The position numbers and the translations under genes are program-made. Positions 5,743 to 44,341 of a DNA stretch of 64,000 nt are shown in pieces; positions within the stretch are counted from its first letter, which is position 1, and every line of letters begins with the position of its first letter. The stretch is taken from assembly GCA_947501445.1 (NCBI GenBank), contig CANMVS010000002.1, forward strand, positions 372,001 through 436,000, given 5' to 3'. This stretch comes from an uncultured Rhizobiaceae group bacterium. Its GTDB lineage: Bacteria > Pseudomonadota > Alphaproteobacteria > Rhizobiales > Rhizobiaceae. The notes below the pieces were generated by a model. The model was given only the letters and a program-made list of their open reading frames with translations. It ran no database searches and was not told where the DNA came from.

Positions 5743-5988
5743 ATGGCCGGGCACCCGATCCCGCATTTCCAAAATGACGCAGGACATCCAGCCATAGACG
5801 TTGGCGTCAGGAAATTTATGTGCGTTGGTGCAAATGCACCTTTTGATCATCCGCATGAGTATTTGGATATGGGCGATGATGTGGAAATAATTTGTCCCTA
5901 TTGCTCAACACTTTACCGATTTGACTCATCTTTGAGTGCCAGTGCCTCCCGTCCAGATGGATGTAGCTATACGATTGAAGTCGATTGA
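5743..5988 (+). CDS. Zinc-finger domain protein (zf-CHCC, NDUFS6-like)
   Basis: An 81-residue protein of the CHCC zinc-finger family. In mitochondria the homologue is the NDUFS6 accessory subunit of complex I, and alphaproteobacteria keep a small free-standing version. The zinc ligands are visible: a Cys in FMCVGA, the DHPHEYL histidines, and the CPYC pair (about residue 55). I chose ATG 5743 because GGAG lies seven bases upstream; an in-frame TTG at 5725 is less likely. It precedes the FAD monooxygenase by about 115 bp. Confidence 0.85.
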   Translation: MAGHPIPHFQNDAGHPAIDVGVRKFMCVGANAPFDHPHEYLDMGDDVEIICPYCSTLYRFDSSLSASASRPDGCSYTIEVD

Positions 5989-6104
5989 ACTAACGCCGTA
6001 AAAATCGCCATTCCAAGCTGGTTTATCGGATTTTCATTTGCTACGTTGACGGATATCAGCGGCTTTACTCAGGCTGTTACCTGTTGTTGTTTTCGTCAAG
6101 GGGC

Positions 6105-7292
6105 ATGCATTCACCAATGCAACCAAGAATTGCCATCGTCGGTGCTGGCATCGCGGGTTTAAGTGCCGCGCTGGCATTTGCACACCGGAACTGCCATGTC
6201 GACATTCTTGAACGCCAGGATTCGCTTGAAGAAGTCGGTGCCGGATTGCAACTATCACCCAATGCGACACATCTGCTCAATAAAATCGGCGTTTTAGAAT
6301 CACTCAGCCAGCTTTGGCACGAGCCGGCGTTTTTGCGGCTGAACTCTGGAAAGAGCCTGCGTCAATTGGCCAGGGTGCCAGTTGGCCAATATGCAAGAGA
6401 TCGCTGGAATTGGCCCTACGTCGTTGTCCACCGTGCCGACCTTCAGAATGTTCTGACCAGCGCTGTCAATGCATCAATAGCGTGCCAACTGCATTTGGGG
6501 AAACCCATCGGGGCAAACTCCGAGCAGGAGCTGCTTGCAAATCTGACGCACGAATTGGGTCATGAGCCTGACTTTGTCATTTGTGCTGATGGTGTCTGGT
6601 CTCAACTAAGAGGCCTTGCACCGCAGTCAACCGCGGCAACATTTTCCGGCTCGACCGCGTGGCGGGCCACGCTTGCGGCAAAGGATTTTCCATCGCTCGG
6701 CGAGCCCGGTAATGTGAACGTTTTTTTCGGAGCCAAAACCCATCTGGTCAGCTATCCCCTTGGCCACCGAAAAGATATCAATATGGTTGCGGTTACGCCT
6801 GGCAATGCCATGGCGAAAAACTGGGACCAGTCAGGCGATGTTGACACGCTGATCGATCAGTTCAAGGGTTGGAACAAGGGCATTCTATCAGCGCTCGGCG
6901 CGGCACAATGGAAGCGATGGCCATTGTTTGAAGTCAGAAATGATCAATGGCGCATTGGCGAAAAGTCAATTCTCATCGGTGATGCTGCTCATGCAATGAC
7001 GCCCCATGCTGCTCAAGGTGCTGCAATGTCAATTGAAGATGCTTTGTGCCTTGCGACCTGTTTTACGGCGTCCAATGGAGATCTTCCAACCACGATGGCA
7101 CGTTATGAGACGCTGCGAAAACCACGCATAGACAGGGTTCGCAAGCGCGGCGATTTCAACAAATATTCCTATCACGTCCGCGGCCCTGCCCGCATTGCCC
7201 GTGATGCGGTGCTGGCGTTTCGAAGACAGCAAACGCTCGCAGCCGGTCTGGATTGGATCCACAATCACCGTGCCGATCAATTGCCGGAATAA
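6105..7292 (+). CDS. FAD-dependent aromatic monooxygenase (UbiH/salicylate hydroxylase type)
   Basis: Flavoprotein hydroxylase of about 395 residues. The N-terminal FAD-binding GAGIAGLSAALA motif is followed by the ERQ acidic end, and the second FAD motif GDAAHAMTPHAAQG lies near residue 300. Family members use NAD(P)H and O2 to hydroxylate phenolic rings. The substrate here is unknown, and both ubiquinone-ring and salicylate/3-hydroxybenzoate roles are possible. The start is uncertain: ATG 6105 has AAGGGG almost touching it, ATG 6117 has it 13 bases away, and a TTG lies at 6084. The gene ends at a strong terminator. Confidence 0.8.
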   Translation: MHSPMQPRIAIVGAGIAGLSAALAFAHRNCHVDILERQDSLEEVGAGLQLSPNATHLLNKIGVLESLSQLWHEPAFLRLNSGKSLRQLARVPVGQYARDRWNWPYVVVHRADLQNVLTSAVNASIACQLHLGKPIGANSEQELLANLTHELGHEPDFVICADGVWSQLRGLAPQSTAATFSGSTAWRATLAAKDFPSLGEPGNVNVFFGAKTHLVSYPLGHRKDINMVAVTPGNAMAKNWDQSGDVDTLIDQFKGWNKGILSALGAAQWKRWPLFEVRNDQWRIGEKSILIGDAAHAMTPHAAQGAAMSIEDALCLATCFTASNGDLPTTMARYETLRKPRIDRVRKRGDFNKYSYHVRGPARIARDAVLAFRRQQTLAAGLDWIHNHRADQLPE

Positions 7293-7325
7293 TGCTCATC
7301 CTGTTATGCCTGCATTACCGGCATC

Positions 7326-7367
7326 AAAAAGCCCGCCTGTCGTGGCGGGCTTTTCAATTTTTTTCCT
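7326..7367. terminator. Strong bidirectional rho-independent terminator
   Basis: Perfect 11-bp arms (7327-7337 and 7344-7354, AAAAGCCCGCC/GGCGGGCTTTT) enclose a 6-base loop with T-rich flanks on both strands. It lies between the convergent monooxygenase and aapP genes and can end both transcripts. Confidence 0.9.
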
Positions 7368-7410
7368 TATCACTGCCTTTTCACCGGCAGCAATGATGGT
7401 TTGAACAGGT

Positions 7411-8199
7411 CTAGTGCAGGATCTGGCTGAGAAACAGTTTGGTGCGTTCATGCTGCGGATTATCAAAGAACTCGCCAGGCTCGTTCTCTTCAACAATCTG
7501 CCCCTGATCCATAAAGATTACCCGATTTGCCACCTGACGGGCAAAGCCCATTTCGTGGGTAACGCACAGCATGGTCATGCCTTCTTCCGCCAGTCCGACC
7601 ATTGTATCGAGCACTTCCTTGATCATTTCCGGATCCAGTGCGGATGTCGGCTCATCAAACAGCATAATGCGCGGGTTCATGCACAGTGAACGGGCGATGG
7701 CCACACGTTGTTGCTGACCGCCGGACAATTGGCCGGGAAATTTATGTGCCTGTTCGGGAATTTTAACCCGCTCCAGGAAGTGCATAGCAACATCTTCAGC
7801 CTCTTTCTTTGGCATCTTGCGCACCCAGATTGGCGCCAATGTACAATTCTCCAGAATTGTCAGATGCGGAAACAGATTGAAGTGCTGGAAAACCATGCCG
7901 ACTTCCCGGCGAACTTCATCGATCTTCTTCAGATCATTGGTCAGTTCAATTCCATCGACAACGATCTTGCCCTTCTGGTGTTCCTCGAGCCGATTGATGC
8001 AGCGGATCATGGTCGATTTTCCGGAGCCTGAAGGCCCGGCAATCACGATTCGCTCGCCCTGCATCACTTTCAGATTGATATCGCGCAACACATGGAAGTC
8101 GCCATACCATTTATTCATCCCGACAATTTCAACCGCCACATCCGTTTCGGATACGGTCATTGTTGCTCGGTTTGTTTCTTGAGCAGCGTTTTCCGCCAT
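7411..8199 (-). CDS. aapP: General L-amino acid ABC transporter ATPase
   Basis: ATPase that powers uptake of a broad range of L-amino acids through AapQ-AapM, fed by AapJ. In 262 residues it shows Walker [10 protein letters not shown] (about 55-63), the Q-loop [10 protein letters not shown], the signature LSGGQQQR, Walker [11 protein letters not shown] and the switch His in THEMGF. The frame is open further upstream, but ATG 8199 has an AGGGGAAG site and matches the family's start. Last gene of aapJQMP, only 14 bp after aapM. Confidence 0.95.
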
Positions 8200-30796: not shown

Positions 30797-32527
30797 TTAG
30801 CTGCCCATGACCTGTTCAACGCGGCGCGTGGCCTGTCGCAATGCCGAAATCAGGCGGTTCTGGCCTCTGGTAAGCTGGGTCAATGCAAAACCCAATGTCT
30901 GATCAGAATGCGTATCCAGCTCACTTGCCGCAGATAATGTTGGCAATGCCGGTACAGTCAAAGCCGGATCATGGCGGAAGCGCTGTTCCCGCGTGAAATT
31001 GATCGGGATCAATATTCTGGCCAGGTCATGGATGACGCCATTGGCATCATCGGCATTAATTGTTCCGCCCGCAACTGCTGCATAGAAGCCGTCAAGCGCG
31101 GCACCCATGGTTTCAGCGGCCTGTCTGGACGGTCCGAAATCAAACCGGTCTGCTGCCTGTGTCTGATAGGCTGCTATAGTTTCCAGAAATTCCTTCGCGG
31201 TTCCGCGCCAGTCAAACGGCAGGATCGGTGCATTTGCATTGCGAAAGACAGAAAGCAGATAGAGCTTGATATCGCGCAGCAGGATATCCTTGTCGGCAAT
31301 CTCCAGCGTATCGTTTTCGGTGTGCCAGGCAATATTCCCGCCACAGCCACCGACGGCATAATACCCCAATTCTTCACGGTGGGCCGTTGTCATGGTTGAC
31401 GAAAGCATGAAATAGCCGGTGATCCCGATATTGTTGAACGAATAGTCGCCGGCCCTGTGCGGGCGTTCACCAAATGCTTCCTTGCCTGCAACATCCCTGA
31501 TGGCTTCTGATATGAAGGCATCCGTCTCGGTCATGCGCGACAGGTTGAGAAACTCCGTTGCCCAGCGACATCCCGGGCTGTCACAATTGACCTGGGCAAC
31601 ACAATTTTCCTCAAGATCAATCGCCATTTCATCGGCAAACCAGGTTGAACCGGCATAACGGCCTGTAGAGTGACCGGGCCACCAGGCGATGCGCACCGAC
31701 CGGTCGAGCTTGTCGCGGTTTTTCCACAGAACACGGGCGACTTCCAGCATGGTGGCATCACCAGTGGCATTGTCACCGACCCCATAATCCCAACTGTCCA
31801 GGTGTCCATGCAGCAGGACATATTTGTCAGGATCCCCGGAACCACGAATAAAGACCTCAGGCAGTTTGGATTTGAACCAGCCCTCTTCCATATTGGCAAA
31901 CAGTTTCACCCGACCGCCCGCCTTTGCAACTTCGATGAGTGCCAGACCATCAGGATTATTGACTGCCACGGCAACAACCGTTGGTTTGCGGGGTAAATCG
32001 TCGAGATCGGGCGTGCCCCAGATGGTTGTGCATATGCCCCAGTGAATGTCGATGCCCGGATTGATGCCAATGACGCCGATCGCACCCAACTCTTCAAACT
32101 GTGCAATCATGCCGGGGCTGGCAAACCCTTCGGAAATGACGATTTTTCCTGAAATGAGCGAGCGTACGTCCCGTGTCGGATCCAGTTTCTTATCAAAAAT
32201 TGTATCAATATCGTCGGCCTGATTGGCGCCGATATAGACCAGTTCCCCTTCCAGCCCATCGGGTGCGTCGACGCAGTATGCGGGTGGTTTTGCCCGATAC
32301 GTCGTTCCGTTGACCTCAACACGGGCCTCTCCCGGTATACTCAGATATAATTCAGGCTCATGAACCTTGACCTCAACGCCATGCGCCCTCAGTCGCGATA
32401 CGACTTCGTCCATGCCGCGATCAACATCATTCGGATGCTCCCGCTTGAAGGTTGAAAAACTCTCCACAAGCCCCCACGGCTCATCAAGAGTAACATCAGC
32501 CAATAGCGCTTTTTCCAGATCATTCAT
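30797..32527 (-). CDS. M28 family peptidase-like protein with PA insert
   Basis: 576 residues from ATG 32527, which has GGAGGA six bases upstream. An N-terminal part with a PA-like insert (about 85-215) precedes a Zn-peptidase domain. Candidate zinc ligands are His242 (HGHLDSW), Asp252 (GVGDNATG), Asp316 and His402 (WHTENDT). The canonical catalytic Glu-Glu pair is replaced by PGHSTG (284-289), so the metal site or chemistry differs from typical M28 aminopeptidases. No signal peptide: probably a cytoplasmic peptidase acting on imported peptides. A putative IclR site lies 72 bp upstream. Confidence 0.8.
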   Translation of the reverse strand: MNDLEKALLADVTLDEPWGLVESFSTFKREHPNDVDRGMDEVVSRLRAHGVEVKVHEPELYLSIPGEARVEVNGTTYRAKPPAYCVDAPDGLEGELVYIGANQADDIDTIFDKKLDPTRDVRSLISGKIVISEGFASPGMIAQFEELGAIGVIGINPGIDIHWGICTTIWGTPDLDDLPRKPTVVAVAVNNPDGLALIEVAKAGGRVKLFANMEEGWFKSKLPEVFIRGSGDPDKYVLLHGHLDSWDYGVGDNATGDATMLEVARVLWKNRDKLDRSVRIAWWPGHSTGRYAGSTWFADEMAIDLEENCVAQVNCDSPGCRWATEFLNLSRMTETDAFISEAIRDVAGKEAFGERPHRAGDYSFNNIGITGYFMLSSTMTTAHREELGYYAVGGCGGNIAWHTENDTLEIADKDILLRDIKLYLLSVFRNANAPILPFDWRGTAKEFLETIAAYQTQAADRFDFGPSRQAAETMGAALDGFYAAVAGGTINADDANGVIHDLARILIPINFTREQRFRHDPALTVPALPTLSAASELDTHSDQTLGFALTQLTRGQNRLISALRQATRRVEQVMGS

Positions 32528-33987: not shown

Positions 33988-34767
33988 TCAAACTGCAGAC
34001 TTTTCAGGAAAGCCCAGTGCCAGGGAGATCTGTCCGGCTGCTTTGAGAACGCCTGCGAGAATTTCGTTCTGTACGACCTCATTCAGACGGGTTACCGGAC
34101 CGGCCACGGATATCGCCGCCAGAACATCCGAACCTGCACCAAATATCGGGGCGGCAATGGAAAATGCGCCAAGGTCAAGATCATCACGGGTGATGTGATG
34201 ACCATGCATTGTTATTTGGCCCAGTCGGCTTTCAAGTTTTACCGGATCGGTGATCGTTTCAGCCGTATATTGCTTGAGGCTTCCTGCCAGCGTTTCCTCG
34301 CGCACCTGTGCAGGCGCATAGGCCAGCAGCACCATTGATCCACCACCGGCATGAAGCGGACCGTGGCGCCCCGCTTTCGCATAAAGACGCATCGAGTGAC
34401 GGCTTTCGCGTGTTGCGACCACCAGCGTATTGAGGCCGTCGCGCACCAGCAGATTGACATTTTCGTTGAACTGGTCACGCAGTGCCTCAAGAGATGGCTC
34501 GGCTGCGGCCAGCAAGCCTCGTTGTTTTGCCGCCTCATCACCAATATGCCAGGCCCGGTAGCCCAGGCCATAATGCGCGTTAACCGCGTCTTTAACCACG
34601 TAACCGCGCGCTTCAAGTGTCTGTAAAACCCGAAACACCAGGCTTTTGGTCATGCCCAGTTCACCTGCCATTTCAGTGATACCAAGCTCCCCGCGTTCAC
34701 TCAGTATTTCCAGCACGCTGAGTGCTCGATCAATGGCAGCGATCCGATAGCTTTTGGTTTCGACCAT
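33988..34767 (-). CDS. IclR family transcriptional regulator
   Basis: 259 residues. The N-terminal winged helix-turn-helix spans about 10-75 (RALSVLEILSERGELGITEMAGELGM, then KSLVFRVLQTLEARGYV), and the effector-binding IclR domain follows. ATG 34767 is chosen over an upstream start because GAGGAA lies seven bases before it. Divergent from the Asp/Glu racemase gene. The intervening region has a 17-bp palindrome that recurs before the M28-like gene, so it probably controls itself, the racemase/transporter operon and the peptidase. Effector unknown. Confidence 0.9.
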   Translation of the reverse strand: MVETKSYRIAAIDRALSVLEILSERGELGITEMAGELGMTKSLVFRVLQTLEARGYVVKDAVNAHYGLGYRAWHIGDEAAKQRGLLAAAEPSLEALRDQFNENVNLLVRDGLNTLVVATRESRHSMRLYAKAGRHGPLHAGGGSMVLLAYAPAQVREETLAGSLKQYTAETITDPVKLESRLGQITMHGHHITRDDLDLGAFSIAAPIFGAGSDVLAAISVAGPVTRLNEVVQNEILAGVLKAAGQISLALGFPEKSAV

Positions 34768-34834
34768 GACGAACTTCCTCAGTGGGACTTGCGCCAACCC
34801 AACGATTGACGTAGGCTTAACAAATTAAAACACC

Positions 34835-34851
34835 GTTTTGCCTAGTGAAAC
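34835..34851. promoter_or_regulatory. Putative IclR operator in the iclR-racemase divergent region
   Basis: GTTTTGCCTAGTGAAAC, 17 bp, matching the element at 32599-32615 at 13-14 positions, including both outer half-sites. It lies 68 bp upstream of the regulator start and 29 bp upstream of the racemase start, well placed to control both. Confidence 0.55.
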
Positions 34852-34879
34852 AACAAATGTCAAGTGTGGAATGACAATC

Positions 34880-35635
34880 ATGCGTATTGCCTATGTCATC
34901 CCGGGTCCAATGTCCAAAGGACCAATGGGCTCCAGTGAAATACGGCGGCGTGAAAAACTGCTGAATTCATGGGCCTTTGACGGGACAACCGTGGAAGCTA
35001 TGGATGTGGAATCCGGGCCGACGTCGATAGAATCGGCCTATGAGGAAGCGCTGTGTGTCCCGGCAACCCTCGATTTGCTGATGGATTGCGAAGACAAGGG
35101 GTTCGACGCAGCGATTATTGGCTGTTTCGGAGATCCCGGTTTGGAACCGGCACGCGAATTGTGCACCATGCCCATAATAGGCCCCTGTGAAGCCTCGCTG
35201 CTGCTGGCCGCGTCCTTGGGGCATAAATTCAGTGTGCTGACACTTTTTGACAGCCTGATTGCCAATCAGGAACATCTGGTGAGCCGGGTTGGTGTGCGCG
35301 AAAAACTCGCCTCGGTCAGAGCGTCCAATACCCCCGTATTGGGATTGATGTCAGACCGTGACGCCACAAAAACCAGACTGATGAATGTCGCAACCAGCTG
35401 TATCGAGGAGGACCGCGCTGATGTGGTTGTTCTTGGATGCATGACCATGGCATTTCTGGGCATCAATGAAGAAATTTCAACCTCGTTGGGCGTGCCCTGT
35501 GTCAATGCGGCAAAAGCTGCACTCAAACAGGCCGAAACACTCGTATCACTGGGTCTTGGTCACTCAAAAACCGCCTTTGCAACACCTCCGAAAGTAACGA
35601 GGGGGCAATCCGTCGCGGATCTCAAAGTCGGGTAG
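34880..35635 (+). CDS. Aspartate/glutamate/hydantoin racemase family protein
   Basis: About 251 residues. Two cysteines sit in the expected catalytic positions (IIGCFGDPG about residue 84, and VVLGCMTMA about 185), so two-base racemase activity is plausible. Family members racemise Asp, Glu, allantoin or 5-substituted hydantoins. I chose ATG 34880 (MRIAYVIPGPM) over ATGs at 34838 and 34871 by family start and a GGA nearby. First gene of a plus-strand unit with the peptide transporter. Confidence 0.85.
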   Translation: MRIAYVIPGPMSKGPMGSSEIRRREKLLNSWAFDGTTVEAMDVESGPTSIESAYEEALCVPATLDLLMDCEDKGFDAAIIGCFGDPGLEPARELCTMPIIGPCEASLLLAASLGHKFSVLTLFDSLIANQEHLVSRVGVREKLASVRASNTPVLGLMSDRDATKTRLMNVATSCIEEDRADVVVLGCMTMAFLGINEEISTSLGVPCVNAAKAALKQAETLVSLGLGHSKTAFATPPKVTRGQSVADLKVG

Positions 35636-35683
35636 AGGGTTTCCCTGCGTCCGGCATCAGTAGAAAGATAATGGGAGAACAAA

Positions 35684-37333
35684 ATGATAAAATTCAGTCA
35701 TTTGGCACTCGCGCTTGCACTGGGTGCAATTGCTACGCAGGCACAGGCCGCCGGCGACAAGATCAGGGAAATAACCATCACAACCCGGCCCCAGGCAGCG
35801 CAGCCACAGGAATTTCAAAGTGCGCAGCTCATTGCCCAGGAATGGCGCAAACTTGGACTGGATGTTAAAGTGGACGTTATGCCATGGGAACAGATGGCTG
35901 ATCTTGTCTGGTATAACCGCGATAAGTGGGACACGACCGGCTGGCAGATGGTTGGTCGGCCAGAACGTTCTGACCCCGATGAGCTGATCTTCAATCTTTT
36001 TCATTCTTCGACCGCGCCAAAGGGATATAATTTTATTGGCTACAACAATCCCGATTTTGACAAAACAGTCGAAGCGCAACGCATCGAGACAGACCCTGCA
36101 AAACGTCAGGAACTGATCCACAAGGCCCAGTCAATTCTGGCCGATGACCAGCCCAACATGATGCTTGTCCATCCAAAATCCACCTTTGCTTTTGACAAGA
36201 CAGTCTGGAACCCGGCAACGGTTATTGATCAGGGTGGCATTGGCATCAAGAACACCTGGACATTCCTGTCCATGGAACCACTGGGCGAACAAAAAGACAT
36301 TATACTGAACTCGTCTGACAATATCGTTTCCATCAACCCGCTCTATGTATCCGGCGCCACCGATAGCTGGATCACCGAGCTGATCTGGGACAGACTGCTG
36401 CGTATCGGGCCAGATGGCCTGCCCCAGCCATGGGCCGCTGAAAATTACAAATGGGTCGATGAAACCACTGTCGAGCTGAAGCTGCGCGATGACATGAAGT
36501 GGCACGACGGAAAACCGGTAACTGTTGACGATGTCAAATTCTCGTTTGAAGCCGCAATGGGCGACGAAGCACCTATGTATAAGCCATTTGTCGGCAACAT
36601 TCAGGCCATTGAAACGCCTGGCGACAGTAGGATCATCTTCAAGCTTGCCAACCCCAGTGCCGCGTTTGTTACGGCCAGCCTGGCAAAACTGAACATCATT
36701 CCCAAACATATCTGGGAACCGATCCTGACGGATCTTGCTGCCAGTGAAGACAATGCTGAAGATTTCCAGGCAGAAATGCCGATTGGCTCCGGTCCCTACA
36801 AATTCACCAGCTGGACGACCAATGAGGAAATCGTGCTGAGCGCAAACAAGGAACATTTTTCGCCTCCCAAGGCAGACCGCTGGATCCTGAGAATCGTACC
36901 GAACACTGAAGCCGCCATCGGCATGCTGCGTTCAGGCGAGATCAATTTCCTGGCGGACTTTTCCGGTGACCCGAAAATTCTGCTCGACCTGGTAGAGCAG
37001 GATGGTGATCTGGAGGTGGTTTCCACAGTTGATATGGGCTTTCGCTATGTTGCCTTTAATCATCGCCGTCCACCATTCAATGATCCCGAGTTTCGCAAGG
37101 CCCTCTCCTCAGCCATCAACCGGGATCTGATTGTCGGCGCTGCCTTCAGAGGCTTTGCGGTCAAATCCAACTCCGTGGTTTCCCCGGCTCTTGGATTTTG
37201 GCATAATGAAGCCGTCGATAATTTCCCGACCGGAACCGATCTGGCAAAATCCACGCTGGAGAAGGCCGGTTATGAATTGAAGGGCAAGGCACTGCACTAC
37301 CCTGATGGCGTCAAAGAGACTCTCGGACAATAG
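35684..37333 (+). CDS. Peptide-type ABC transporter binding protein with circularly permuted SBP_bac_5 fold
   Basis: 549 residues. A signal peptide (residues 1-23, ending AQAAG) is followed by sequence that in SBP_bac_5 proteins is C-terminal: about 26-198, including the lobe strand REITITT, GYNFIGYNNPDFDKTVE and QSILADDQPNMMLVHP. Residues about 205-549 then match the usual N-terminal start and middle: NPLYVSGATDSW, DDMKWHDGKPVTVDDVKFSF, IGSGPYKFTSW, FNHRRPPFNDPEFRKALSSA, ending at AGYELKGKALHYPDG. The order is therefore swapped in one open frame. Strong GGAG before ATG 35684. It feeds the permeases and ATPases downstream; ligand unknown. Confidence 0.85.
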   Translation: MIKFSHLALALALGAIATQAQAAGDKIREITITTRPQAAQPQEFQSAQLIAQEWRKLGLDVKVDVMPWEQMADLVWYNRDKWDTTGWQMVGRPERSDPDELIFNLFHSSTAPKGYNFIGYNNPDFDKTVEAQRIETDPAKRQELIHKAQSILADDQPNMMLVHPKSTFAFDKTVWNPATVIDQGGIGIKNTWTFLSMEPLGEQKDIILNSSDNIVSINPLYVSGATDSWITELIWDRLLRIGPDGLPQPWAAENYKWVDETTVELKLRDDMKWHDGKPVTVDDVKFSFEAAMGDEAPMYKPFVGNIQAIETPGDSRIIFKLANPSAAFVTASLAKLNIIPKHIWEPILTDLAASEDNAEDFQAEMPIGSGPYKFTSWTTNEEIVLSANKEHFSPPKADRWILRIVPNTEAAIGMLRSGEINFLADFSGDPKILLDLVEQDGDLEVVSTVDMGFRYVAFNHRRPPFNDPEFRKALSSAINRDLIVGAAFRGFAVKSNSVVSPALGFWHNEAVDNFPTGTDLAKSTLEKAGYELKGKALHYPDGVKETLGQ

Positions 37334-37358: not shown

Positions 37359-38336
37359 ATTTCCGGTCTTAAACACATAGGCGGCCGCCTGGCACAATTG
37401 GTATTTGTGCTTTGGGCGGTCGCAACAATTCTCTTTCTCATGTTCCGCCTGATGCCAAGCAACCCTTTGGCGGCCTACATAGATCCAACATTCACCATTG
37501 AGCAGCAGGCCATCCTGATGGCCAAGTTCGGTTTGGACAAACCGCTTTGGGAACAATATTTCATCTATTTGTGGAACCTGCTTCACGGCGAATTGGGCGA
37601 TAGTTTTTTCTACCGTCAGCCTGTCGGTCAACGGGTGCTTGAGCTGCTGCCAAACACGTTAATTCTGACCTTCAGCTCGCTGATTGTGGCTTACATGTTT
37701 GGTATTATCGCTGGCGCGTGGCTGGCATGGAAACGCGATACCTTTGCAGAACGGGTTTCCATTCCCATGGTTCTGGCTACCCGTGCAATGCCGGAATTCT
37801 GGTTGGGTATGTTGCTGCTGGCCGTATTCAGTTTTTCGCTTGGCTGGTTTCCTGCCGGAGGCACACGCAGTCCCGGCTCTGAATACAGCGGTTATCTGGC
37901 GCTCTATACGTCACGGGATTTTTTGGCACATCTGGTGCTGCCTGCGCTGACGCTGGCCATTTACTCTCAAGGGCTGCCGCTTCTTCTCATGCGCTCCAAT
38001 ATGCTTGAAGTCATGCATGAGGATTTTGTCACAATGGCGCGTATCAAAGGCCTGTCCAACTGGACAGTTGTGGTGCGTCATGCGGCGCGCAATGCACTGC
38101 TTCCGGTCATGACATCCTTTGCGATCTCTGTCGGTTATCAGATACAGGGCAATGTGGTGGTCGAAACGGTGTTCTCCTGGCCCGGACTTGGCCGCGAACT
38201 TGTCAATGCCGTATCGGCCAGTGACTACCCTCTCGCCCAAGGTGCCTTTTTGATGATTGCAGTGGTCGTGGTGCTGATGAACCTGCTGGCAGACCTGCTG
38301 TACGGCCTGCTCGATCCGAGGGTGTCGCATGCCTGA
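37359..38336 (+). CDS. Peptide-type ABC transporter permease (DppB/OppB-like), probable ATT start
   Basis: Inner-membrane permease with six membrane segments and the EAA-type loop LRSNMLEVMHEDFVTMARIKGLS. The first ATG/GTG/TTG in frame is TTG 37398, which would cut into the first hydrophobic segment and has no site. The frame opens at 37356. AGAGGA at 37345-37350 sits eight bases before an ATT (37359) and five before an ATC (37356). Translation from there gives SGLKHIGGRLAQLVFVLW, the usual DppB N-terminus. I therefore infer a rare ATT/ATC start. It ends eight bases into the next gene. Confidence 0.85.
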   Translation: MSGLKHIGGRLAQLVFVLWAVATILFLMFRLMPSNPLAAYIDPTFTIEQQAILMAKFGLDKPLWEQYFIYLWNLLHGELGDSFFYRQPVGQRVLELLPNTLILTFSSLIVAYMFGIIAGAWLAWKRDTFAERVSIPMVLATRAMPEFWLGMLLLAVFSFSLGWFPAGGTRSPGSEYSGYLALYTSRDFLAHLVLPALTLAIYSQGLPLLLMRSNMLEVMHEDFVTMARIKGLSNWTVVVRHAARNALLPVMTSFAISVGYQIQGNVVVETVFSWPGLGRELVNAVSASDYPLAQGAFLMIAVVVVLMNLLADLLYGLLDPRVSHA

Positions 38337-39237
38337 GTTGACCACAGCACGCAAACCCCATGCCCTGCACTGGCTCACCCGTCGCTTTGCACGGCTGCAA
38401 ATCCCGCTGGATGATCCCTTTGCCGTCACCGGTCTGATCATCTATGCGGTGTTCATTCTGGTTGCCATTTTCGCCAATCAGCTTGCGACCCACGATCCGC
38501 TGGAGATCCTGTATAGTGAAACCTACGAACTGTCCTCCAATCTCAGGCCCGGCGAAGATGGCTTCATTTTGGGGACGACCAGCCTTGGCCGTGATATTTA
38601 CTCACAGCTCATCTATGGGTCACGCAGTGCCTTGCTGATTGGCATAACAGCTGCTTTCATGGTAGCGGTCATCGGCACCATCGTTGGATTGCTGTCAGGC
38701 TACTTCGGCGGATGGATTGACATTGTTTTGATGCGCGCGGCGGACATCGCCTTTGGCATTCCGTTCCTGCCATTCGTCATTGTTCTATCGGCCTTTCTCG
38801 AACCTTCCATCTGGAATGTTGTCTTTGCCATGGCACTCATTTTGTGGCGCGATACCGGCAGGGTGATCCGCAGTCAGGTTCTGACCCTGCGCACCCGGAC
38901 CTATATCGATGCCGCCCGCATTGCCGGCTCCTCGGATATGAAAATTGTCTTCAGCCATATCGCGCCCAACATTCTGCCATTGAGCTTCCTCTACGGATCG
39001 ATAGCAATCGGCTGGGCCATCCTGACGGAAGCAGCCATCAGCTTTCTGGGCTTTGGTGATCCTGAAACAATCTCCTGGGGCTACATGCTGCAGGATGCCT
39101 ATGCCTCTCAGGCCCTGTCCACTGGCGGATACTACTGGTTTGTTCCCCCTGGCATCTGCATCATCTTGGTGGTGGTTGCCGGGTTCTTCATCAGCCGCGG
39201 CTATGAGGAAATTCTGTTTCCCAAACTCAAGGATTAG
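38329..39237 (+). CDS. Peptide-type ABC transporter permease (DppC/OppC-like)
   Basis: 302 residues. An N-terminal OppC segment is followed by a six-helix permease domain. GTTSLGRDIYSQLIYGSR is the conserved DppC motif, and the EAA loop is RTRTYIDAARIAGSSDMKIVFSH. Overlaps the dppB-like gene by eight bases and is followed seven bases later by the first ATPase gene. Forms the membrane channel with the upstream permease. Confidence 0.92.
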   Translation: MPELTTARKPHALHWLTRRFARLQIPLDDPFAVTGLIIYAVFILVAIFANQLATHDPLEILYSETYELSSNLRPGEDGFILGTTSLGRDIYSQLIYGSRSALLIGITAAFMVAVIGTIVGLLSGYFGGWIDIVLMRAADIAFGIPFLPFVIVLSAFLEPSIWNVVFAMALILWRDTGRVIRSQVLTLRTRTYIDAARIAGSSDMKIVFSHIAPNILPLSFLYGSIAIGWAILTEAAISFLGFGDPETISWGYMLQDAYASQALSTGGYYWFVPPGICIILVVVAGFFISRGYEEILFPKLKD

Positions 39238-39244
39238 TCCTGAC

Positions 39245-40261
39245 ATGAGTGACAACATCCTGTGTGTCAAAGGCCTCAAGGTTACCTATAGTGTCGGCAC
39301 AGCCCGAATACGGGCTGTTGACGATGCCACTTTCGACATCCCCAAGGGCTCAATCGTCGGCCTGGTCGGGGAATCGGGGTGCGGCAAGACCACCGTTGCC
39401 CGTGCCCTCACCCGCGTGATGGCCAAGGCAGCCGGATTTGAGGGTGGTGAAATGCTGTTCGACGGCGTCGATCTGCTGGGTCTCAGCGAGGCGGATATGA
39501 ATAAATTACGCTGGCGTGATATCGCCTTTATTCCGCAAAGCGCCATGAACTCGCTTGACCCGGTCTACACCATCGAAAAACAGCTCAATGAAGTACTCAT
39601 TCAGCGCGGTGGCATGAACAGGCGAGAGGCCCGTGCGCGCGCTGAAGAACTGTTCGACATGGTCGGCATCGACCCCAGACGCCTCGGCGATTATCCGCAT
39701 CAGTTTTCCGGTGGCATGCGCCAGCGTGTCGCCATTGCGCTGGCACTTGCACTCAATCCGAAGCTGATAATAGCCGATGAACCGGTCACCGCACTGGACG
39801 TGATTGTCCAGAGGCAGATTCTGGACACATTGAAATCCCTGCAGGAACGGCTTGGATTATCGGTCATTCTCGTAACGCACGACATTTCAGTTGTTGCCTA
39901 TGTATGTGACCGGATTGTTGTCATGTATGCGGGGCGGGTTGTTGAATCCGGAGACACCGAAACCGTACTCACCCAGCCCTTTCATCCCTATACAATGGGG
40001 CTTTACAATGCCTTTCCTGATCTGCAGTCAAGTGAAGGTCTGCTAACACCTATTGAGGGCCACCCACCCGATCTTAGCGATCCACCCGACGGTTGCCGCT
40101 TTGCGCCGCGATGCCCCTTTGCACAAACCCCTTGCAGCACTCAGAACCCGACACTGGTGGAGGTCGGGTCACGTCACGTGTCTGCCTGTCTGCGTGTTGA
40201 CGAAGCGCAGCAACTGCGTGAGCAGGCGGCACAGACGCAAACCTGGATGGGGGCAATATGA
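39245..40261 (+). CDS. Peptide-type ABC transporter ATPase (DppD/OppD-like)
   Basis: 338 residues. Walker A GESGCGKTT, Q-loop IPQSAMNSLDP, signature FSGGMRQR, Walker B LIIADEPVTALD, then the oligopeptide C-terminal domain with cysteines (CRFAPRCPFAQTPC) that hold a [4Fe-4S] or zinc in related ATPases. Start ATG 39245; upstream frame is a shadow inside the permease gene. The stop overlaps the next ATG by four bases. Confidence 0.93.
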   Translation: MSDNILCVKGLKVTYSVGTARIRAVDDATFDIPKGSIVGLVGESGCGKTTVARALTRVMAKAAGFEGGEMLFDGVDLLGLSEADMNKLRWRDIAFIPQSAMNSLDPVYTIEKQLNEVLIQRGGMNRREARARAEELFDMVGIDPRRLGDYPHQFSGGMRQRVAIALALALNPKLIIADEPVTALDVIVQRQILDTLKSLQERLGLSVILVTHDISVVAYVCDRIVVMYAGRVVESGDTETVLTQPFHPYTMGLYNAFPDLQSSEGLLTPIEGHPPDLSDPPDGCRFAPRCPFAQTPCSTQNPTLVEVGSRHVSACLRVDEAQQLREQAAQTQTWMGAI

Positions 40262-41268
40262 CATCCGCACAAGGAAAAGCTGTGACCAGCACCCCCTCGC
40301 CAGTCATCGCCGTGGAGGACATACGCAAACATTTTGCCGTCGGAAGCCCGATCGCCGCCGCCATGCGCCGCAAGTCGGTGGTGGTCAAGGCCATAGATGG
40401 CGTTAACTTTACGCTCAACAAGGGTGAAAGCGTTGGACTGCTGGGCGAATCAGGCTGCGGAAAAACCACAATGGGTCGCATGCTCTTGAAGCTCGACGAA
40501 CCAAGTGAAGGCCGTATCCTTTTCGAGGGTGATGATCTGGCCACCATGCAGGGACCGGCGCTGCGCGCCTATAGGGCCCGCGCCCAGATGATATTTCAAA
40601 ATCCGTTTGAAGCCCTCAACCCGCGTTTCACCATCGCTCAATCCATGGATGAACCGCTGTCCAATGCGAATATAGCAAAAGCAGAACGCGCTGACAGGAT
40701 CAGAAAGGCCATGGATCTGGTTCATCTGCCCGATCCGGCTCAGTTTCTGGAGCGCTACCCTCATCAAATGTCGGGCGGGCAGCTGCAACGGGTGGTGATG
40801 GCTCGTGCGCTAATCCTGGAACCCACATTCGTGGTTGCCGATGAACCGGTTTCAATGCTGGATGTCAGTGTCAGAGCCGGCATATTGAACCTGTTTCGCG
40901 AGGTACGCGACAATATGGGCCTCACCGCCATCTACATCAGCCATGATCTGGCGCTGGTACGCTATGTGTGTGAGCGTACCATTGTGATGTATCTGGGCTG
41001 TATTGTGGAAGACGGGCCGACGGAAGAAATCGTCAAAAATCCGATGCACCCCTATACCAAAGCGCTGGTGGCGGCCGTTCCCGTACCACACCCCGCCCAA
41101 TCCCATGCCCCGTTGCCCATCAAGGCAGGTGCGCCGGATGCCCGAAACCCACCTTCAGGCTGCAGGCTGCGCGACCGCTGCCCGCACGCCTTTGACCGCT
41201 GCGCGATTGAAGAACCCAAAGCCACCCGCATCGGTGCACGCAAGGTACATTGTCATTTGTTTGACTAG
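40258..41268 (+). CDS. Peptide-type ABC transporter ATPase (DppF/OppF-like)
   Basis: 336 residues. Walker A GESGCGKTT, Q-loop IFQNPFEALNP, signature MSGGQLQR, Walker B VVADEPVSMLD, and the C-terminal oligopeptide domain with CRLRDRCPHAFDRC. Second ATPase of the heterodimer. The N-terminal AMRRKSVVVKAIDGVNF is usual for OppF. Last gene of the transporter unit, convergent with the FecE-like gene about 130 bp on. Confidence 0.93.
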   Translation: MTSAQGKAVTSTPSPVIAVEDIRKHFAVGSPIAAAMRRKSVVVKAIDGVNFTLNKGESVGLLGESGCGKTTMGRMLLKLDEPSEGRILFEGDDLATMQGPALRAYRARAQMIFQNPFEALNPRFTIAQSMDEPLSNANIAKAERADRIRKAMDLVHLPDPAQFLERYPHQMSGGQLQRVVMARALILEPTFVVADEPVSMLDVSVRAGILNLFREVRDNMGLTAIYISHDLALVRYVCERTIVMYLGCIVEDGPTEEIVKNPMHPYTKALVAAVPVPHPAQSHAPLPIKAGAPDARNPPSGCRLRDRCPHAFDRCAIEEPKATRIGARKVHCHLFD

Positions 41269-41396: not shown

Positions 41397-42161
41397 TCAG
41401 CCATCAATCGCGCATAGCGGTGTGACACGCAGTCGGCCTGTAGCAGAGGTTTCGATCTCGACATTGACGCCATAGAGCCTGCGCAGCCGATCGACTGTCA
41501 ACACGTCCTTCGGCACACCCAGCCCATCGATGCGGCCATTTTCCAGACAGATAATCTGATCAGCAAATTGGGCTGCCAATGAAAGGTCGTGGATTGCCAC
41601 AACCGCGGGAATGTTCTGATCGCGCGCATAGCTGCGTACCTTTTCCAGAACAACCATCTGGTGGCGCAGATCTAGGGCTGCGGTCGGCTCATCCAGCAGC
41701 AGAACCCTGGGCGTACTGAACAGGGCCTGTGCCAAAAAAATAAGTTGTCTTTGCCCACCGCTGATTTCATCCAGTGCCCGGTTTTGCAACGCTGAAAGGC
41801 CAAAGCGGTCCAGCGCTTTTTCCGCACTCAAGATCAGCGCTGGTGGTATCGACAGACCCAGCACATTGATTTGCCCCAGCAATATGACCTCCATCAGGGT
41901 CAATGATGATTGTCCGCCCGTATCCTGCGGCATATAGGTAATGATGCTTTGCCGGCCTTTGTCTGGCACCGGCTCACCTTCAATGCTGACCGAACCAATG
42001 TTTGGCAAAATCCCGGCTATGGCCTGCAAAAGCGTGGATTTGCCCGAACCGTTCGGACCGATCAGCGCCGTCACCTGCCCGCCCTCACAATGCGCACTCG
42101 CCTGCCTGATAATGGGATTATTGCCGCGCGAAACAGTCATGTTGCTGATTGATAACATCAC
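41397..42161 (-). CDS. FecE-type metal-chelate ABC transporter ATPase
   Basis: 254 residues. Walker A GPNGSGKST (about 36-44), MPQDTGGQSS Q-loop, signature ISGGQRQLI, Walker B LLLDEPTAALD, and His switch AIHDLSLA. Belongs to the FepC/FecE/BtuD group that powers uptake of siderophores, haem or cobalamin. Last gene of three. Its ATG overlaps the permease stop by four bases. Confidence 0.9.
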   Translation of the reverse strand: MMLSISNMTVSRGNNPIIRQASAHCEGGQVTALIGPNGSGKSTLLQAIAGILPNIGSVSIEGEPVPDKGRQSIITYMPQDTGGQSSLTLMEVILLGQINVLGLSIPPALILSAEKALDRFGLSALQNRALDEISGGQRQLIFLAQALFSTPRVLLLDEPTAALDLRHQMVVLEKVRSYARDQNIPAVVAIHDLSLAAQFADQIICLENGRIDGLGVPKDVLTVDRLRRLYGVNVEIETSATGRLRVTPLCAIDG

Positions 42162-43219
42162 CAGTTTCTCCGTCGGTTGCGAAAGATGAGAATGAACAGA
42201 AACGGCACACCAATAATGGCCGTGACAATGCCGATCGGGATTACACTGCCCGGCGATATGAGTTTTGAGGCAATTGATGCAGTCATCATGACAAATGCTC
42301 CCGTGATCGCCGCCATGGGCACCAGAATGCGCTGGTCTTCTCCCACCAGCATGCGGGCAATGTGCGGAGACACCAGACCGACAAAGCCAATGGTCCCGAC
42401 AAATGCCACTGCTGACGAGGTTAAAAGGGCGATCAGAACAAACATTTTGATGCGCAGTCGCTTCACATCAACACCGATGGCAGCGGCGCGCGTTTCCCCC
42501 AACCGCAAAGCTGTCAGCCGCCACAATTCCGGGATCATGAACATCACGCACCCCAGCAGGACGGTGGCGACAATCGGTACATTGGACCAGCTTGCCTTGA
42601 GCAGCGATCCGAACAGCCAGAAGACGATCGCCTGCAACACTTCCGGTGCCGCGAGATATTGAACAAGCGACTGAAACGACTGGAATAAAAACAAGGTGGC
42701 AATGCCTGAAAGGATCATCACCTCAGAGCTCATCGCCCTCACATGGGCAAAACCATAAACCAGAACGGCTGCAAACATGGTCATGATAAAGGCCGCCACA
42801 GGAACGGTCAGCCATGGCGCCATTGGTATTGAAATGCCGGTAAATATGGCAATTGACGCGCCAAAGCCTGCGGCAGTGGAAAAGCCCAGCGTATAGGGAC
42901 TGGCAAGCGGATTTCCCAAAATGGTTTGCATGGACACGCCAGCAATGCCAAGCGATGCACCGACCAGCGCAGCCATAAGGGTCATGGGCAGGCGGATTTC
43001 ATGCACGATGACGACGGTTGTTGCACTGGCATCCGCTGGAAAGAGCAAAGACGAAACAACATCACCAACACTGAGAAATGCCGGACCCGTCAAAATATCG
43101 GCCACAAATGCCACACAGGTGACCAACAACCCGACAACAAGACAGACCAGCCTTTGGACCATCAAATGCTGATATGTCGGAGCGGCTGTCGCCGCCCCGG
43201 TTGATTTTGAAACAGCCAT
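42158..43219 (-). CDS. FecCD-type metal-chelate ABC transporter permease
   Basis: 353 residues with about ten membrane segments. FecCD family motifs: NPLASPYTLGFSTAAGFGAS, GLVSPHIARMLVGED and the C-terminal PVPIGIVTAIIG-like stretch. Pumps a ferric siderophore, haem or cobalamin across the inner membrane as a homodimer. Second gene after the binding protein, six bases downstream. Confidence 0.92.
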   Translation of the reverse strand: MAVSKSTGAATAAPTYQHLMVQRLVCLVVGLLVTCVAFVADILTGPAFLSVGDVVSSLLFPADASATTVVIVHEIRLPMTLMAALVGASLGIAGVSMQTILGNPLASPYTLGFSTAAGFGASIAIFTGISIPMAPWLTVPVAAFIMTMFAAVLVYGFAHVRAMSSEVMILSGIATLFLFQSFQSLVQYLAAPEVLQAIVFWLFGSLLKASWSNVPIVATVLLGCVMFMIPELWRLTALRLGETRAAAIGVDVKRLRIKMFVLIALLTSSAVAFVGTIGFVGLVSPHIARMLVGEDQRILVPMAAITGAFVMMTASIASKLISPGSVIPIGIVTAIIGVPFLFILIFRNRRRNW

Positions 43220-43225
43220 CAGACG

Positions 43226-44341
43226 TTATCCGCCACGGTTGTGAGGCAGACGTGTCATATAGGTTCCGCTGAACTGAATGGGCATGTAATCGGCAAAAAA
43301 CCTGTCCAGATTTTGTTGCGGATCAATATCTGCAAAGGCCTCTGGATGCATTGCTTTCGCCAGATACTGCAGGAACACAAAATCATAAAGCGTGCGTGCA
43401 CCCCCATGATATATGGCGTGAATATTCTGCGCGTTGACGGCAGTCAGTGCGTTCCATCCGGGTCTCGCCGCGTAGGGCCTCATCCGTTCATGGGTGATTT
43501 GCAGATCAACACCCGGCCCCATCAGCACCGCCTTGTCGCGGTTGACCCAGCCTGATCCGGCCAGGAATATGAAATCGGGGTTTTGCGCCAGAACATGTTC
43601 CGGACTGAGCGGGCCCCATTTGGATATCTGTCCCTTGGCAATATTGGTACCGCCGGCGCTCTCAACCAGTCGGCCCCACATGGTATCGCCATAGGAGTTG
43701 TCAATTTCTTCTGCCCCTTTGCGGGCAAGCTCAACATAGACTTTTGGTCTGCTATCAAGGCTCGCAACACGCTGTTCTATGTCCGCAATGGCTGCGGTAT
43801 AGGCATCAGTCAGTTCTTTTGCCCGCTCCTGCCTACCAAGGATCGCCCCCAGAGCCAGGGTGGATTTTACGTGTTTGTCCACCGTCTGCGCGTTGTAATC
43901 CAGCACCACCACCGGTATTCCGGCGCTTTCCAGCCGTGATACGACATCACCGAGCGCACTGAACTGCCACGCGGCGAGAATGGCGACATCCGGTTTTATG
44001 GAAACCGCAGTTTCAAGGGAAAAGGTGCCCGCGTCCACTTCGCCAACATCACTCAACGTGGCAATTTTGGGAACAGCGGCAACATAGGCTTTCCACTGCA
44101 GGTTCCGCCAGTCTTCCCAGGCGGCACGGGAAATACCGACAACATTATCGAAAGCATTTTCTCCGCCAACTGCAAAAAAATCTTCGAAGTAAAACCCCAA
44201 AAGTATGCGCTGTGCATCCTGTGGCACTGCCACCTTGCGGTCGAGTGCATCGCTAACGGTTATGGTTTGCGCCCAGGCGGGCGCGGCAAGTGTCATCGCC
44301 ATTGCCAGAACGGCAAGGCCACGGGTGATCGCAGTCATCAT
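43226..44341 (-). CDS. FepB-type periplasmic metal-chelate binding protein
   Basis: 371 residues. A signal peptide (MTAITRGLAVLAMAMTLAAPAWAQ) is followed by a PBP type-3 (helical backbone) fold: VSDALDRKVAVPQDAQRI, KPDVAILAAWQ, GIPVVVLDYNAQT. The ligand may be a siderophore, haem or another chelate. A conserved Gly/Arg-rich loop (RPGWNALTAVN) is typical. First of the three FecBCD-type genes. The DUF2946-like gene lies 61 bp upstream on the same strand and a possible Zur-type box lies further up. Confidence 0.88.
   Translation of the reverse strand: MMTAITRGLAVLAMAMTLAAPAWAQTITVSDALDRKVAVPQDAQRILLGFYFEDFFAVGGENAFDNVVGISRAAWEDWRNLQWKAYVAAVPKIATLSDVGEVDAGTFSLETAVSIKPDVAILAAWQFSALGDVVSRLESAGIPVVVLDYNAQTVDKHVKSTLALGAILGRQERAKELTDAYTAAIADIEQRVASLDSRPKVYVELARKGAEEIDNSYGDTMWGRLVESAGGTNIAKGQISKWGPLSPEHVLAQNPDFIFLAGSGWVNRDKAVLMGPGVDLQITHERMRPYAARPGWNALTAVNAQNIHAIYHGGARTLYDFVFLQYLAKAMHPEAFADIDPQQNLDRFFADYMPIQFSGTYMTRLPHNRGG

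Follow-up and report, generated by a model that had tools for sequence, protein, structure and literature searches.

Classical natural circular permutations are presumed to arise by a duplication and fusion mechanism. Among solute-binding components of importers, a natural case has been described in Treponema pallidum, whose glucose-binding protein TpMglB-2 (Tp0684) is circularly permuted and was proposed as 'Type Ic / Cluster Bc' (PMC4990184). This permuted substrate-binding protein (SBP) still binds its ligand, and the authors leave open an origin of the permuted part from another gene (PMC4990184). No permuted member of the SBP_bac_5 family was found among the open PubMed Central papers listed, subscription papers lying outside the reach of that search; PMC2588589 names both SBP_bac_5 and circular permutation, but does so only in a table and a reference. 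SBPs of the peptide type are among the very numerous transport proteins of bacteria, with 20 genes in the source genome of this study alone.

Reversed domain order of the SBP gene

The window, by which we mean the whole analysed stretch of 64,000 nucleotides beginning at genome position 372001, contains a gene for a protein of 549 residues (Table 1) that was confirmed as a circularly permuted SBP_bac_5 protein of cluster C, of DppA/AppA type. Its frame is open from an ATG start, holds one copy of each part and has the usual length, and GGGAG stands at 35673-35677, six bases 5' of the ATG. A signal peptide was recognized by eye, and the relatives aligned with the protein have comparable N-terminal starts. 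The canonical C-terminal segment follows directly, then a short junction, and the canonical N-terminal and middle segment at the back terminates in ...GKALHYPDGVKETLGQ.

Table 1. Features of the window and of the permuted genes of genome G494 (the latter numbered within their loci)
Feature	Position	Strand	Basis or remark
M28-type peptidase	30797..32527	-	frame open from 32650; ATG 32527 judged likelier; M28 annotated in relatives' records
IclR-type regulator, divergent	33988..34797	-	
Asp/Glu/hydantoin racemase family protein	34838..35635	+	upstream of SBP, same strand
Circularly permuted SBP_bac_5 substrate-binding protein, 549 aa	35684..37333	+	ORF, Pfam, 1xoc_A alignment
Signal peptide, residues 1-22	35684..35749	+	AxA rule, by eye; Sec type, cut between ...TQAQA and AGDK, without lipobox
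Canonical C-terminal segment moved to front, residues 26-198	35759..36277	+	PF00496, 1xoc_A
Junction residues 199-204, canonical C end to canonical mature N end	36278..36295	+	
Canonical N-terminal and middle segment at back, residues 205-549	36296..37330	+	PF00496
Permease, DppB/OppB type	37398..38336	+	BPD_transp_1
Permease, DppC/OppC type	38329..39237	+	BPD_transp_1
ATPase, DppD/OppD type	39245..40261	+	ABC_tran and oligo_HPY; frame open from 39053; ATG 39245 judged likelier
ATPase, DppF/OppF type	40258..41268	+	ABC_tran and oligo_HPY
ATPase of iron-siderophore/corrinoid-type importer	41397..42161	opposite to SBP	
Membrane protein, looks like FecCD permease	42158..43219	opposite to SBP	by eye
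Binding protein of iron-siderophore/corrinoid-type importer	43226..44341	opposite to SBP	by eye
Permuted SBP_bac_5 gene, L113	6147..7733	+	
Permuted SBP_bac_5 gene, L112	6657..8333	-	
Permuted SBP_bac_5 gene, L124	6834..8543	+	

SBP_bac_5 (PF00496) was the sole Pfam family matched by the protein at E values up to 1, and its score of 234.8 bits passed the gathering threshold of 32.4. The match was split over two stretches in reversed order, residues 247-535 corresponding to profile positions 2-283 and residues 32-110 to positions 290-365. The DNA shows the same reversal: profile 277-365 maps to genome positions 407735-408013 and, further along the same strand, profile 2-283 maps to 408422-409288. 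Both segments matched PF00496 when scanned separately, a check that the first-pass annotation had proposed: residues 26-198 at profile 290-365 (E 5e-7; 29.6 bits, just below the whole-protein cut-off) and residues 205-549 at profile 2-283 (E 3.8e-63). Against AppA (1xoc_A), query residues 205-542 aligned with chain residues 23-357 (i-Evalue 1.1e-31) and query residues 45-171 with 375-496 (1.8e-9). Rotation of the chain into canonical order turned these split matches into single ones, a PF00496 stretch covering profile 2-364 of 368 with 247.4 bits and one collinear alignment with 1xoc_A (11-493 to 33-496). No single collinear profile match ran along the native chain, and residues 26-198 matched SBP_bac_5 rather than another domain. 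The source genome gave 22 matches for its 20 SBP_bac_5 genes, two genes being matched in two pieces each, and among the 20 the order was reversed in this gene alone.

The first-pass annotation had read this gene as a permuted SBP in a continuous frame, with a strong ribosome-binding site and a signal peptide, whose chain ends where the canonical family joins LHYPDG to REITITT. Each of these points was borne out, and its interpretation as a whole is supported. A widespread permuted family, two further permuted lineages and a junction readable in one of them lie beyond what it had seen. The term 'oligopeptide-binding' that it used is a family name and says nothing on the ligand.

Distribution of the permuted form

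The search for homologues with the same order, likewise suggested beforehand, found reversed order common to many relatives. The window type occurs in Alphaproteobacteria, in a Halanaerobiales-like (Bacillota) phylum and in haloarchaea, with one breakpoint. Of 7 congeners searched, 5 had a full-length collinear relative, as did G014 from another genus; together with the window's own genome this gives 7 of 61 genomes. Nine of 13 genome-contig loci (L016-L024) were collinear at full length, and the other four, from Buttiauxella, matched the N part only. Positive genomes numbered 13 of 385 in the Alphaproteobacteria, the window's included (a lower bound, three candidates being scored per genome), among them that of L035, which begins at a contig end so that the order is not visible there, and 6 of 199 in the Halanaerobiales-like phylum of G445 (also a lower bound, with seven candidates per genome). 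A survey of 398 genomes across the window's phylum had one positive, the window's own, which says little because three candidates were scored per genome. No relative was found in the viral contigs searched.

Plasmid carriers, defined by one place covering at least 80% of the query, included Neorhizobium, Microvirga, Nitratireductor, Roseomonas, Ketogulonicigenium, Maritalea and many haloarchaea among the 40 records listed out of 49. Ten plasmid records annotate the permuted gene simply as 'ABC transporter substrate-binding protein', and the swap therefore goes unnoticed. In one Neorhizobium galegae plasmid record (CP090555.1, 575304-576876) the permuted gene appeared in two tblastn pieces, annotated as an SBP and a hypothetical protein, and may be broken; other N. 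galegae records hold single-piece copies.

All 25 permuted proteins in alignment A2 shared the same breakpoint. Their chains end within some residues of the conserved AGY...G.L..P, and the strand that follows it forms the start after the signal. Solved sequences matched by the A2 profile had the canonical N part first in all of the 60 listed out of 111, none being permuted. Among ORFs with both parts, 52 non-identical ones had reversed order and 85 canonical order, figures that are not a prevalence, since the searches behind these loci had in part targeted permuted proteins; the first classing had comprised 44 permuted and 47 canonical ORFs, with 10 N-part-only ORFs placed in neither class. 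By a crude pattern, the new N-terminus of 42 window-type ORFs had neither motif in 24, RR only in 10, a lipobox only in 4 and both in 4. Thus the new N-terminus bears plain signals, twin-arginine-like signals or lipoboxes.

Three permuted lineages and their junctions

A PF00496 scan of ten genomes revealed two more reversed genes, L112 and L113, in genome G494, both beyond the reach of the window-type profile at E 1e-75. G494 holds three permuted SBP_bac_5 genes of separate lineages: P1, the window type, at C35, P2 at C36 and P3 at C2. P2 (L113) had full-length permuted relatives in 8 of 149 genomes, L113 itself included, with 60-100% identity; the other 8 places matched by L113 covered residues 196-525 or less and were classed canonical. 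Identity to its four nearest canonical sisters was 55-57% in the N part and 45-50% in the C part. P3 (L112) was permuted in 2 of 149 genomes, those two being 95% alike, and the other 40 places matched by L112 covered only residues about 186-556 at up to 51% identity (17 of these were inspected, and were classed as canonical). P2 and P3 sit among canonical proteins that reach 51-58% identity in the part they have in common.

In the final tree of 72 rows, all placed in canonical order, P1, P2 and P3 each formed one group, with UFBoot/SH-aLRT supports of 99/89, 100/98 and 100/100. P2 grouped with its canonical sisters (100/98) and P3 with the canonical L160 (100/99). The rows comprised 26 of 42 P1, 6 of 8 P2, 2 of 2 P3 and 38 of 85 canonical ORFs, leaving out near copies, L136, L079, L080, L015, L039 and others. 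An earlier tree (74 rows, with 37 of 44 permuted ORFs) had 4 changes of order, at least 3 of them forced; in that tree L136, a permuted haloarchaeal protein on a long branch, and the canonical L132 were unresolved at the base of P1.

The junction is readable in P2. In an alignment of six P2 proteins, five of which show the join, the canonical end INLHDVxL is followed by four residues, the first of which can equal the canonical last residue, and then by the first canonical mature strand, (T)IVVGM-like. The new chain stops three or four residues past ...EAGY. Its mature part now begins with KTLAVVID, which in the alignment falls on the strand after AGY..G in the canonical sisters (FDVVID). As far as this alignment shows, no stretch of the mature protein appears to have been lost in P2. 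The profile-bounded N part stops at DppA 365-369 in five rows (two P1, two P2 and one P3), and P1 chains extend slightly beyond that point, to LHYPDG. Domain 2 of MppA is given as 288-506 in precursor numbering (PMC6022919), and because of this span the cut can be placed, by alignment with MppA and DppA, in the C-terminal lobe (domain 2).

The front and back pieces might instead derive from different SBP genes, an origin that the authors of the TpMglB-2 study considered for that protein (PMC4990184). The halves of P1 are too distant from the sampled canonical proteins to be judged separately. However, both P2 pieces best match the same canonical sisters, and a tree of the C part alone returned the same three groups with three changes of order (SH-aLRT of P1, 12). 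We regard such a chimera as unlikely, and a permutation as the better reading.

Operon context

The permuted gene heads genes of DppB, DppC, DppD and DppF type, in agreement with the intact transporter operon noted in the first-pass annotation, and its protein thus combines an export signal, recognized by eye, with adjoining Dpp/Opp-type permease and ATPase genes. Within the stretches fetched, both permease queries and the ATPase query were matched in 34 of 37 window-type loci; these 37 include the window, count one genome reached twice (L017 and L131) and contain one locus cut by a contig end (L120). L136 and L118 gave no transporter match within their loci. The former (5821-7701) encodes a 626-aa permuted SBP on the Haloferax gibbonsii plasmid pHG2, beside a sulfotransferase and sugar genes. 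Directly downstream of the window operon, 41397-44341 on the opposite strand encodes an importer of iron-siderophore or corrinoid type.

The P2 permuted gene occupies the place of the canonical gene, before two permease genes that are 56-64% identical to those of canonical operons in L113 and L176 and 50-59% in L178. The third gene is an ATPase at 53-61% identity in L113 and L176, and another gene in L178. Because of this shared operon place and these similar permeases, the permuted P2 form probably does the same job as the canonical one, and they are the strongest sign of this that we have. A sensing or scavenging role, independent of the neighbouring permease, would suit the two loci L136 and L118. 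Given the permease and ATPase genes in 34 of 37 loci, and since the permease genes that follow P2 genes are those that follow the canonical SBP gene, we consider such a role quite improbable and service in the adjoining importer the preferred reading.

An M28 peptidase like that of the window occurred in 16 of 37 window-type loci and a HyuB-type hydantoinase/oxoprolinase gene in 6 of 37. Two haloarchaeal plasmid loci (L133, 4320-5699; L135, 2794-5491) have M28 metallopeptidases annotated beside the permuted SBP, and the window's M28 gave no match to the M28 genes of these two plasmids. As a guess, the M28 peptidase and racemase nearby, joined in some relatives by a hydantoinase/oxoprolinase, may indicate a ligand that is a small amide, a peptide-like compound or one of hydantoin/oxoproline type. 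The position of DppA D436 was acidic in 14 of 26 P1 rows and that of DppA R383 fell in a gap, and for this reason we make no ligand claim from residues.

Number of origins

Grouping P1, P2 and P3 as one clade was rejected by the AU test (p = 1.9e-38), as were the pairs P1+P2 (2.4e-8), P2+P3 (4.7e-4) and P1+P3 (8.1e-39); the all-permuted group was defined by chain order and the pairwise groups after the tree had been seen. Because the test rejects one clade for all permuted proteins, the swap is judged from these trees to have arisen at least twice. Three origins are probable, and they follow if the ancestral order was the canonical one. A candidate fourth permutation, L189 (1632-3515, minus strand, G104:C3), was rejected, as it falls inside P1 on a long branch. 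It is a very divergent second P1-type SBP in the genome of L030, with a 628-aa frame and a twin-arginine-like start.

The single cut common to all permuted proteins seen would also fit one ancient event, after which the canonical sisters of P2 and P3 reverted. Against this stand the AU result, a final tree that needs only 3 changes of order, and the canonical order being far commoner, in 19 of 20 genes of the source genome; a root placed inside P1 still leaves two independent gains. One ancient event is therefore very improbable, and we retain repeated origin.

An artefact, either a misjoin or two neighbouring SBP genes read as one permuted gene, can practically be dismissed, even though tandem SBP genes exist and a tblastn piece of P3 crosses two CDS in Phyllobacterium, as it is already refuted by independent conserved copies: the gene is a single ORF with a signal peptide, recurs at 51-86% identity in assemblies made independently, is present on a named plasmid that is complete, and P2 genes lie on two contigs of 2.8 Mb.

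Proposed origin and function

Whole-gene dN/dS of the window gene was 0.042-0.064 against L010, L011, L016 and L017 and 0.084 against L019, values obtained close to saturation of dS; the comparison with L009 gave no finite dS, and in the nearer pair L009-L010 dN/dS was 0.016/0.53. These ratios indicate that the permuted gene is under purifying selection and apparently kept working.

We propose that the protein is very probably the exported, working SBP of a Dpp/Opp-type importer and a full-length circular permutation of the SBP_bac_5 fold, with its ends moved to domain 2. The old C end is joined to the old mature N end, and the new ends lie between the ...AGY helix and the next strand; by the alignment with MppA and DppA, this takes both termini, along with the signal peptide or lipid anchor, out of lobe 1 and into lobe 2. 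The cleft between the lobes and the permease-facing surfaces should remain unchanged, and we infer that the protein folds like DppA and closes on its ligand. In E. coli, the scoop motif of the permease enters the cleft between the N- and C-lobes (PMC12136057), an entry that the permutation as mapped need not disturb. The permuted SBP is real and, by all indirect signs, functional.

It may have originated when the gene was duplicated in tandem, the copies were fused in frame and the outer parts were dropped; the first N part behind the signal and the second signal would be lost and a stop would come to follow AGY. Tandem SBP genes are a natural and plausible starting state. On a plasmid of Phyllobacterium sp. 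T1293, four tandem canonical SBP genes stand directly before oppB (L187, 1122-7819), and a single tblastn piece of the P3 permuted protein spans two annotated CDS there. None of the few frames checked carried two SBP copies in a single ORF, as a fusion intermediate would; the long open frames of L191 and L192, considered as such intermediates, had one N-part match each.

We lean towards a permutation hotspot: the loop near DppA 365-369, which precedes the first strand in the second half of the C lobe, would have been opened on three or more separate occasions, both in bacteria and in a family reaching archaea. It would have been reopened repeatedly because live importers tolerate, or even favour, ends and an anchor that lie in lobe 2 instead of lobe 1.

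Comparison with known systems

If one point has been permuted again and again, that would be rare evidence for a structurally predisposed site, and repeated origin at one site raises the interest of the permuted SBP_bac_5 proteins. The close pairs of P2 and canonical proteins would form a natural before-and-after set in which one can test directly how chain order affects export, folding and importer docking, and the cut site offers a guide for the design of permuted SBP biosensors.

With AppA (1xoc), DppA, OppA and MppA of cluster C, the rotated protein is homologous along its whole chain, and it shares export and the parts of a DppBCDF-type operon. It differs from them in having its segments swapped and, by alignment, its ends in the C lobe rather than in lobe 1. 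Compared with classical permutations, the presumed mechanism is the same, whereas here several origins at one cut occur within one family, and P2 has close canonical sisters. TpMglB-2 (PMC4990184) is likewise a naturally circularly permuted SBP, but it belongs to Type I / cluster B, binds glucose and is cut in the N lobe, whereas the window protein belongs to SBP_bac_5 and, by alignment, is cut in the C lobe. SBP_bac_5 being its only Pfam family, the window protein falls outside Type I / cluster B, a judgement made from family assignment rather than from direct comparison with TpMglB-2. TpMglB-2 is the nearest precedent for a permuted SBP_bac_5.
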